The position numbers and the translations under genes are program-made. This document shows, in pieces, positions 42,276-45,224 of a DNA stretch of 64,000 nt (positions are counted from its first letter, which is position 1; each line of letters begins with the position of its first letter). A model generated the notes under the pieces. The model made no database searches and was not told where the DNA came from. It saw only the letters and a program-made list of their open reading frames with translations. The stretch comes from a bacterium (lineage in GTDB: Bacteria; Zhuqueibacterota; Zhuqueibacteria; Residuimicrobiales; Krinioviventaceae), in assembly GCA_029561455.1 (NCBI GenBank), contig JAKQIY010000013.1:248001-312000 (forward strand), given 5' to 3'.

Positions 42276-43826
42276 CTACAACAACTTTTCGCTGATCGAC
42301 TTGGCTTGCATGAACAAACCCAGGTAATCGCGGCCGCCGGCTTTAGAATCCGTGCCGCTCATATTAAAGCCGCCAAATGGGTGCGCGCCGACCATTGCGC
42401 CGGTACATTTACGGTTAATGTACAGGTTGCCGACATGGAAATCCTGCTTGGCCGTTTCGATCTTGTAACGATTTCTGGTATAGACCGCGCCGGTCAGACC
42501 ATATTCCGTACTGTTGGCTATCTGCAGCGCTTCTGTAAAATTTTTCACCTTGAGCACCGCCAGCACCGGACCAAAGATCTCTTCCTGATCCAGTCGGGAA
42601 CCAGGATTCACCCCGGCAAAGACCGTCGGCGCAATGAAATAACCCTTATCGGATACTTTATTTCCGCCGGCCACTAGTTTATGGTTCTTTTTGCCATAGT
42701 CAATATAGGAAAGGATTTTTTCTTCCGATGCTTTATTGATGACCGGCCCCATATACATGGCCAGGTTTTCCACATCGCCAACGCTGAGCTTTTTAGTGCG
42801 TTCAACCACCATTTCCAAAACCTGGTCATGTATATCCTCAACCAGAATAGCGCGGGAGCAGGCCGAGCATTTTTGTCCCTGAAAACCGAACGCCGAAGCG
42901 ACGATGTTGGCAGCGGCGTCTTCAAGATTTGCTTCGCTATCCACTATGATTGTATCTTTGCCGCCCATTTCGGCAATAACGCGCTTGACCCAGATTTGTC
43001 CGGGTGACAGGCGGCTGGCCAGTTCGTTGATCCGTAAACCGACCTCTTTAGAGCCGGTAAAGCTGATGAATCGGGTTTTGGGATGTTCCACAATATAATC
43101 GCCGATCTCTGCGCCGCTGCCGGGAATATAATTGAGCACCCCGTCGGGCAGTCCGGCTTCACGCATAATCTCCACCAGCCGATAGCCGATAGCGGGAGAG
43201 TCGCTGGCCGGTTTAAGCAGCACGGTATTGCCGGCTACAATTGCAGCGGTAGTCATGCCGGTAAGGATAGCCATCGGAAAATTCCATGGCGGAATGGCCG
43301 CGCCCACACCCAGGGGAATATAGACCTGTTCCGGGTATTCATTCGGGAATGGCGTGGCACCTTTGAGTTCGCTCCAGCGGATCATTTCGCGGGCATAGAA
43401 ATCCAGAAAATCCACCGCTTCGGAGGTATCGGCTTCGGCTTCCGCCCAGCTTTTACCGGTTTCATAGATCATCCAGGCGTTGATCTCGTATTTCCGCTTG
43501 CGAAGAATTTGTGCGGCTTTGAGGAGAACGATCGCCCGTTCCTTGGGCGCTACTTTTTTCCATTTTTCAAACGCCCTTAATGCGGCATCCATTGCCAGAT
43601 CAACTTCCTTTTTCCCGGCTTTGTAAAATGTGCCGACCACCTCTTCCTGGCGTGAAGGATTATAACTTTTGTATACAGCGCCGGTTGTAACATCTTTACC
43701 GTCAATATAGAGGGGATATGTTTTGTCAAACTGACTTTTTACTTTTTGCAGCGCTTCTTTCTGTGCCTGTGCAAATTCCGGTTTGGAAAAATCGGTATAA
43801 CTTTCATTGCGAAATTCGGCCAGCAT
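42276..43826 (-). CDS. rocA: L-glutamate gamma-semialdehyde (delta-1-pyrroline-5-carboxylate) dehydrogenase
   Basis: The ~516-residue NAD-dependent enzyme oxidises glutamate semialdehyde, the second step of proline breakdown. Full-length agreement with the RocA/PruA type is visible from YPLYIDGKDV through PPWNFPMAI, ISFTGSKEVG, the catalytic Glu ~286 (IAEMGGKD) and Cys ~320 (FQGQKCSACSR) to NRKCTGAMVGAHPFGG. The second of two neighbouring ATG codons (43826) is chosen because AGGAGG lies 7 bp before it. No proline dehydrogenase gene lies in the window. It shares an operon with a TPR protein and the SelW-like selenoprotein. Confidence 0.93.
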   Translation of the reverse strand: MLAEFRNESYTDFSKPEFAQAQKEALQKVKSQFDKTYPLYIDGKDVTTGAVYKSYNPSRQEEVVGTFYKAGKKEVDLAMDAALRAFEKWKKVAPKERAIVLLKAAQILRKRKYEINAWMIYETGKSWAEAEADTSEAVDFLDFYAREMIRWSELKGATPFPNEYPEQVYIPLGVGAAIPPWNFPMAILTGMTTAAIVAGNTVLLKPASDSPAIGYRLVEIMREAGLPDGVLNYIPGSGAEIGDYIVEHPKTRFISFTGSKEVGLRINELASRLSPGQIWVKRVIAEMGGKDTIIVDSEANLEDAAANIVASAFGFQGQKCSACSRAILVEDIHDQVLEMVVERTKKLSVGDVENLAMYMGPVINKASEEKILSYIDYGKKNHKLVAGGNKVSDKGYFIAPTVFAGVNPGSRLDQEEIFGPVLAVLKVKNFTEALQIANSTEYGLTGAVYTRNRYKIETAKQDFHVGNLYINRKCTGAMVGAHPFGGFNMSGTDSKAGGRDYLGLFMQAKSISEKLL

Positions 43827-43866
43827 AAGCATACCTCCTGTTTTGGTTCAGTTCATTTGGAGAATC

Positions 43867-44916
43867 TCAATTCTGCAAATTTTTTATTTCCCGGTTACAG
43901 GTCATTATACATAATGCTAACAAACCTGCCAGTATATTTTCATCCATTTTTTGGATATGTTCCTGATTATGTGTGATGGGTTTGGCGATTGAAAATAATA
44001 ACAGCAATGCGGTGGCGATTCTCAACGGCAGCGCTACAACGAGTTGCTGAAATTGTGAGGCGTTAATAAATTCTGCTTCCAGACCAAATACGGCGCTGTC
44101 CCTGCTGATTTGTTCCAAAAGCAAAGCCATGATCAGTCCGGCCAACTCGGGAAAATGACCTTCCTGCAATAATTTTAGCGCTTCCAGACCAAACCGGGCA
44201 TCGGTCTCCAGATCAGTCATCTCTTGCAGCATATTGTCTAATTCCTGCCTGCCGTTTTCAAGTAACCGGCCCAACTCGCCGGCGCCAAGTAAATCCAGCA
44301 CCTGGGCAAGATTTTGCCTTTGATTGGCAGGTGTGCGCAAAAATTCATACACCGGTATATTGAGCGACATCCAGCGATTATCATATCCTTCAGTGCGAGT
44401 CTCAACTTGATCACCGGCATCGAGATAAAGTTGCTCAAAATCGGTAAATTCCAGTCCCGGTAAAAGATAGTACACCAGCACATCGAGTGACGTATTCTCT
44501 TCCCATTCATACTCTTTACTTGCCGCTTGCTTGAGCAGCAGCCTGGCTTTGATGATCACTCCGCATTTGTATGCAGCCAGAGCGGCCAGAAACAGTGCTT
44601 CCGCCGGGCGTATTTTTTGTTTAAATAGTCCTTCGTAATCCTGCAGCGCTTGCTTGTATTTACCGAGCGCCAGCAGGGCTTCGCAGCGGGTTTCAGCATA
44701 TTCCGGCTGTTTGGCGGCAGACAGGGGAGTGTAAATCCTTAACGCCTGCTCGGTATTGCCCAACGCCAGGTAACACCGGGCTATAAACACCCGGAGCAAA
44801 TGATTATCGGGATTTTGGGCTGATAATTGTTCAATTGCCGAACAGGCTTGTTTGATCTTCCCCTGTTGTACTAATTCTTCTGCTGCATGCAGGTTTTGTG
44901 AAATTGGTTGTGTCAT
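43867..44916 (-). CDS. TPR-repeat protein
   Basis: The 349-residue protein begins with three to four tetratricopeptide repeats (AAEELVQQGKIKQACSAIEQ, HLLRVFIARCYLALGNTEQAL, ETRCEALLALGKYKQALQDY) and continues into an alpha-helical part of unknown kind. No signal peptide is seen, so it is probably cytoplasmic and acts as a scaffold. It starts 12 bp after the SelW-like gene and ends 40 bp before the P5C dehydrogenase, so the three are one operon. Confidence 0.7.
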   Translation of the reverse strand: MTQPISQNLHAAEELVQQGKIKQACSAIEQLSAQNPDNHLLRVFIARCYLALGNTEQALRIYTPLSAAKQPEYAETRCEALLALGKYKQALQDYEGLFKQKIRPAEALFLAALAAYKCGVIIKARLLLKQAASKEYEWEENTSLDVLVYYLLPGLEFTDFEQLYLDAGDQVETRTEGYDNRWMSLNIPVYEFLRTPANQRQNLAQVLDLLGAGELGRLLENGRQELDNMLQEMTDLETDARFGLEALKLLQEGHFPELAGLIMALLLEQISRDSAVFGLEAEFINASQFQQLVVALPLRIATALLLLFSIAKPITHNQEHIQKMDENILAGLLALCIMTCNREIKNLQN

Positions 44917-44928
44917 ATAATCCGGTCT

Positions 44929-45144
44929 TTATCCCAATTTTGCAAAAATTTCATTCGCTTCAGGAAAACGTCCGGTCGCTTTTTTGGAAAAGACCAATAC
45001 ATCATCCTTGCGTACTTCAAACACCCCGCCGCTCGATTTAATCAGAGTTGCATCGATTTGGTATTTGTTTTTTATCTCATCAGCCAGCCTGGCTGCTTTG
45101 GGATAATAGTTTCACATATCACAGTATTCTATAGTAATCTTCAT
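44929..45144 (-). CDS. SelW/Rdx-family selenoprotein with in-frame UGA
   Basis: Read from ATG 45144 (GGAAAGGA lies 6 bp upstream), the frame is interrupted only by TGA at 45112-45114 (codon 11) and then runs to TAA at 44929-44931, giving 71 residues. The sequence before the TGA is MKITIEYCDM, so the codon falls exactly on the second redox position of the Rdx motif C-x-x-U. After it come NYYPKAARLADEIKNKY, LIKSSGGVFEVRKDD and FSKKATGRFPEANEI, all typical of SelW/Rdx thioredoxin-fold redox proteins. A SECIS-like hairpin lies right after the TGA. Ordinary gene callers miss this gene or shorten it. Selenocysteine insertion also needs selA, selB, selC and selD, which are not in this window. Confidence 0.9.
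45072..45106 (-). promoter_or_regulatory. bacterial SECIS-like hairpin
   Basis: In the mRNA CAGCCA (45090-45095) pairs with UGGCUG (45081-45086) around the loop GGC (45087-45089), and an outer helix UUAUC (45102-45106)/GAUAA (45072-45076) can form below it. The apical loop begins 22 nt after the UGA and carries G at its first positions, as the bacterial SECIS model (loop 16-37 nt after the UGA, G in the first two loop bases) requires. Confidence 0.75.
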
Positions 45145-45195
45145 AAATAATCCTTTCCATTAATGTACAGATTTACTTGCTGTTTTCGTCCAGTC

Positions 45196-45224
45196 AATAT
45201 AAAAAATAGTTTTCGGATTGTCAA
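45196..45224 (-). promoter_or_regulatory. promoter of the SelW-TPR-P5CDH operon
   Basis: On the minus strand TTGACA (45219-45224) and TATATT (45196-45201) are separated by 17 bp. A start near 45189 leaves a leader of about 45 nt before the SelW-like ATG. A nominal minus-strand ORF of 60 codons (45141-45323) contains this promoter and is most likely not a gene. Confidence 0.7.

Follow-up and report, generated by a model that had tools for sequence, protein, structure and literature searches.

A conserved in-frame UGA codon and a SECIS hairpin point to a SelW-like selenoprotein gene in Calditrichota

The SelW-like gene and its neighbours

The window, i.e., the whole stretch of 64 kb that we analysed, belongs to a genome (G000) of 5.85 Mb that is 98.8% complete, and occupies C29:248001-312000 in it. 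By kinship labels, the genome would belong to Calditrichota, probably to the class Calditrichia. We found on its minus strand a frame of 71 codons running from ATG to TAA (45144→44929), with a single in-frame TGA at codon 11 (Table 1). The initial annotation had given exactly these coordinates, without the strand, and had placed the TGA at the second position of a C-x-x-U motif, which we confirmed (C-D-M-U). When the TGA is translated as selenocysteine (Sec, U) the product reads MKITIEYCDMUNYYPKAARLADEIKNKYQIDATLIKSSGGVFEVRKDDVLVFSKKATGRFPEANEIFAKLG. The ribosome-binding site that had been proposed is in place, and most SelW homologues have a G-rich, Shine-Dalgarno-like motif upstream. The proposed promoter does resemble the consensus, but shuffles of the SelW upstream region contained on average 1.8 promoter-like sites, so such a site is expected by chance.

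The plus-strand reading of the interval, an ORF of 80 aa opposite the SelW frame (44908-45150, +), is present as previously indicated; we dismissed it. Sixteen read-through frames lie outside long ORFs in the window. Inspected by eye, only the SelW frame was selenoprotein-like, and no other read-through selenoprotein candidate in the 64 kb was convincing.

Table 1. Features of the SelW-like locus and extra tRNA-Sec-like genes of the same genome.
Feature	Position	Strand	Evidence or remark
SelW-like (Rdx family) selenoprotein gene	44929..45144	-	translation with TGA=U, Pfam Rdx, NF041051
Start codon ATG	45144-45142	-	sequence
Cys8 codon	45123-45121	-	sequence
Predicted Sec codon UGA of C-x-x-U (C8-D-M-U11)	45112..45114	-	TGA in 44/44 phylum matches
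Stop codon TAA	44931-44929	-	sequence
Shine-Dalgarno AAGGA, 6 nt ahead of ATG	45151..45155	-	sequence
Sigma-70-like promoter TTGACA-17-TATATT	45196..45224	-	consensus match only, 11/12 positions
bSECIS hairpin	45072..45106	-	fold, position in relatives, loop codon bias, covariation
bSECIS upper stem, 6 bp	45095-45090 with 45086-45081	-	fold
bSECIS loop GGC, 22 nt after UGA	45089-45087	-	fold
TPR protein gene	43867..44916	-	Pfam TPR_19 1.2e-10; start 12 nt past SelW stop
L-glutamate gamma-semialdehyde (P5C) dehydrogenase gene	42276..43832	-	TIGR01237 736 bits vs cut-off 660
Extra tRNA-Sec-like gene 1	G000:C67:20481-20578 (L002:1501-1598)	-	Rfam
Extra tRNA-Sec-like gene 2	G000:C67:23758-23855 (L004:1501-1598)	-	Rfam

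Homologues of the TPR gene adjoin SelW in eight relatives, with the P5C dehydrogenase gene next in seven of the eight, and the SelW–TPR–P5C dehydrogenase cluster is kept across several families of the order. The SelW-like gene is probably co-transcribed with the TPR gene as one operon. The conserved neighbours support such an operon and give a lead to function, no more.

Protein family and predicted fold

The Rdx family signature, said to be present on both sides of the TGA, was recovered by the Pfam profile Rdx (PF10262), which covers residues 2-69 (E 5.2e-21, 75.1 bits for a cut-off of 22.6). The protein also passed the cut-offs of NCBIfam NF041051, the SelT/SelW/SelH family (seleno)protein profile (99.9 bits vs 88), and of TIGR02174 (60.6 bits vs 34.2). 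The predicted fold (pLDDT 96) places the C-x-x-U motif between strand 1 (residues 3-8) and helix 1 (residues 14-28). It matches the SelW-related crystal structures 2fa8 and 2obk with a TM-score of 0.91 (E 5.5e-08 for 2fa8), thioredoxins being more distant (TM about 0.5). The most likely product is a redox protein with a thioredoxin fold and Sec; SelW-like proteins are generally viewed as redox proteins (PMC1088965).

Conservation of the UGA codon

We searched the phylum with a query carrying Cys at the Sec site, so that Cys forms would have been picked up. We obtained 44 SelW-like matches in 43 of the 82 genomes. All 44 had TGA, and none had Cys at the site. That all relatives found in the phylum share this UGA, at an identical place in one and the same protein, is far beyond chance. 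When loci from the phylum and beyond were read base by base, TGA stood at this position in 71 of 73; the other two, L052 (titled Myxococcales) and L092 (titled Caldivirga), had TGC (Cys). The latter Cys protein (L092:3001-3246) comes from an archaeal bin titled Caldivirga sp. UBA161.

The existence of such Cys homologues elsewhere leaves room for a sequencing or assembly error that turned TGC or TGT into TGA. Yet the same TGA recurs in independent assemblies across the phylum and in other phyla, and we give this explanation a negligible probability. The UGA might also be a real stop, in which case the gene would be a decaying Cys or Sec protein. In line with decay, genomes have at most one full-length SelW-like member, and the gene is missing from about half of the phylum. 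However, every homologue in the phylum has the UGA, and the frame is intact and under purifying selection. Changes between close relatives 3' of the UGA are mostly synonymous, with dN well below dS (0.016/0.974 for L041/L044; 0.040/0.415 for L031/L032). A relative with a frameshift or a real stop, named in the initial annotation as a refutation, was not seen in the phylum, save for a short extra fragment in G058, the second match in that genome, which carries the TGA plus a TAA. The codon bias in the SECIS element and the full Sec machinery, described below, also count against decay, which we consider extremely unlikely.

The SECIS hairpin

The SECIS-like hairpin of the initial annotation is real. 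It folds at -11.9 kcal/mol (z -2.28), and 6 of 200 shuffled sequences folded equally well. Published rules for bacterial SECIS elements (bSECIS) ask for a spacing of 16-37 nt, a stem of 4-16 bp, a loop of 3-9 nt with G in its first two positions, and a minimum free energy of -7.5 or lower (PMC13188914). The hairpin satisfies every one of these constraints (22 nt, 6 bp, GGC, -11.9 kcal/mol), and most SelW homologues likewise have the apical loop at +22.

Selection on the RNA shows most strongly in the codon bias at codon +8, which extends across the loop start. Where this codon encodes serine it is AGT in all 43 non-redundant genes, compared with 29 of 357 at the other serine positions of these genes. 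Where it encodes arginine, the residue of the window's own protein, it is AGG in 13 of 18. The second base is G in 66 of 67 cases, and the loci of the class alone have 23 AGT, 5 AGG, and 1 GGT. The loci were collected by protein search and not by DNA patterns, hence the bias was not caused by their retrieval.

Among 32 aligned sequences, 81% of the stem cells can pair, compared with 67% in shuffles and 21-42% when the stem is slid along the alignment; the homologues are kin, and p-values therefore overstate their independence. Double-sided changes occurred in five of the eight stem pairs, and the outer two pairs are often broken among homologues. Compared with synonymous-codon controls, the homologues gain little in folding energy (mean z -0.6). 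Since folding energy is weak on its own, the case for the SECIS is carried by position and codon bias.

Sec machinery and extra tRNA-Sec-like genes

The initial annotation had proposed a genome-wide check for selA, selB, selC, and selD, and all four were found. The tRNA-Sec (63 bits, anticodon UCA, ARAGORN) is encoded on the window's own contig and is an ordinary selC with G73-CCA. The scores of SelA (571 bits vs a cut-off of 268), SelB (345 vs 242), and SelD (379 vs 125) were all above their thresholds, and there is a single selB above the cut-off in the genome. The selD gene (L018:1402-2457, -) is itself a UGA selenoprotein gene with a C-A-G-U motif (KCAGUASK). Of 60 genomes of the phylogenetic lineage, 53 had a selA above the cut-off. 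With selA and selB present in nearly all relatives, their co-occurrence with SelW is uninformative.

The genome also has a match to AhpC-TSA, a peroxiredoxin family, with one in-frame TGA (G000:C43:17051-17449, +). It is likely to be a further selenoprotein, and the SelW-like gene is thus not the only selenoprotein candidate of the genome. We also looked for formate dehydrogenase, another known selenoprotein; no match to the molybdopterin oxidoreductase profile (PF00384) was found in the genome, and hence no formate dehydrogenase of the usual kind.

Two extra tRNA-Sec-like genes lie on another contig, C67 (Table 1). Both exceed the Rfam cut-off (53.7 and 48.0 bits) and were missed by ARAGORN. 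They are 98 nt long and 95% identical to each other. Each has a UCA anticodon and a 6-bp D stem, the variable arm is long, and the acceptor/T arrangement is predicted to be 7/5. The first has a T directly after it (U73) and lacks an encoded CCA. Both sit within 195-base direct repeats, one on each side of the gene for a 961-aa repeat protein. Among described tRNAs, they come closest to the selC* tRNA-Cys with a UCA anticodon of Desulfobacterales, in which U73 is among the identity elements (PMC7609411) and which differs in having an 8/4 arrangement. Possible identities of the extra genes are selC*-like tRNA-Cys(UCA), allo-tRNAs, and decaying copies.

The presence of such UCA tRNAs in the same genome, one of them with the U73 of selC*, would allow a second tRNA to decode the UGA as cysteine or serine instead of Sec. 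However, a search of 80 other genomes of the phylum gave no close copy of the C67 tRNAs, although SelW homologues there keep the UGA. The genome has SelA, SelB, SelD, and the ordinary selC, with only one selB above the cut-off, and by eye no second cysS or selB was evident among the ORFs in 16 kb around the C67 tRNAs. We regard decoding as cysteine or serine as very unlikely.

Interpretation of the locus

The analysis shows the structure of the gene, its family, the conserved UGA, the features of the SECIS, and a genome equipped with every Sec factor. The reading as a selenoprotein made in the initial annotation is supported by the full Sec machinery together with a UGA conserved in every phylum match. 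The gene product is almost certainly a small selenoprotein with a thioredoxin fold, a member of the bacterial SelW-like (Rdx) family, with Sec specified via SelB and the hairpin. SelB with Sec-tRNA(UCA) would bind the hairpin 22 nt past the UGA, leading to Sec insertion at residue 11. The resulting redox pair, Cys8-x-x-Sec11, would sit in the loop that joins strand 1 to helix 1, and the product's most likely activity is thiol/selenol redox catalysis on a partner.

The TPR protein is the first candidate for such a redox partner. One may go further and propose a Sec-only SelW subfamily of Calditrichota with the TPR protein as its redox partner and a tie to proline/P5C metabolism. We consider this broader proposal rather improbable; if true, it would supply a physiological role for a bacterial SelW-like protein.

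Comparison with known SelW-like proteins

The initial annotation had suggested that Sec in this lineage would extend the known range of selenoproteins. This was overstated, as SelW-like selenoproteins are widespread in bacteria (PMC1088965, PMC1794560), where the family was recognised about 2005. They were the most abundant selenoprotein family of the Sargasso Sea set in 2005 (PMC1088965), and a 2006 count listed ten Sec members of the SelW-like family (PMC1794560). Sec forms have been described in that marine set, Desulfotalea, Geobacter, and epsilonproteobacteria (PMC1088965, PMC1794560, PMC4607533). The SelW genes of epsilonproteobacteria were completely missed in annotation (PMC4607533), and a survey of 5200 genomes found SelD in almost all lineages (PMC5029168). 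We found no description of Sec in Calditrichota in the literature searched, a weak sign of novelty. What is new is modest, namely the spread of the gene through Calditrichota, always with Sec, and the conserved SelW–TPR–P5C-dehydrogenase neighbourhood. Because the family and the annotation problem were already known, the discovery is incremental. Still, the sequences suggest that Calditrichota, a little-studied phylum with few cultured members, uses Sec decoding; a gene finder that takes each UGA as a stop would overlook the SelW-like gene. The conserved neighbourhood gives a starting point for testing what bacterial SelW-like proteins do.

Among known structures, the SelW-related bacterial proteins 2fa8, 2obk, 2p0g, and 3dex share the predicted fold (TM-score 0.90-0.92) and match the sequence over nearly its full length at about 30% identity; we take them to have Cys where the protein studied here has Sec. 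Mouse SelW (2npb), the eukaryotic selenoprotein W, has the Rdx family in common with it but is only a weak match (sequence E 0.9, TM 0.63). In eukaryotes the SECIS is located in the 3' UTR. The closest known counterpart is the bacterial SelW-like selenoprotein (PF10262, NF041051, TIGR02174), which has the same size, fold, and C-x-x-U motif, and a bSECIS right after the UGA. Our protein differs from it in its host phylum, Calditrichota, in being always a Sec form there, and in its link to the TPR and P5C dehydrogenase genes.
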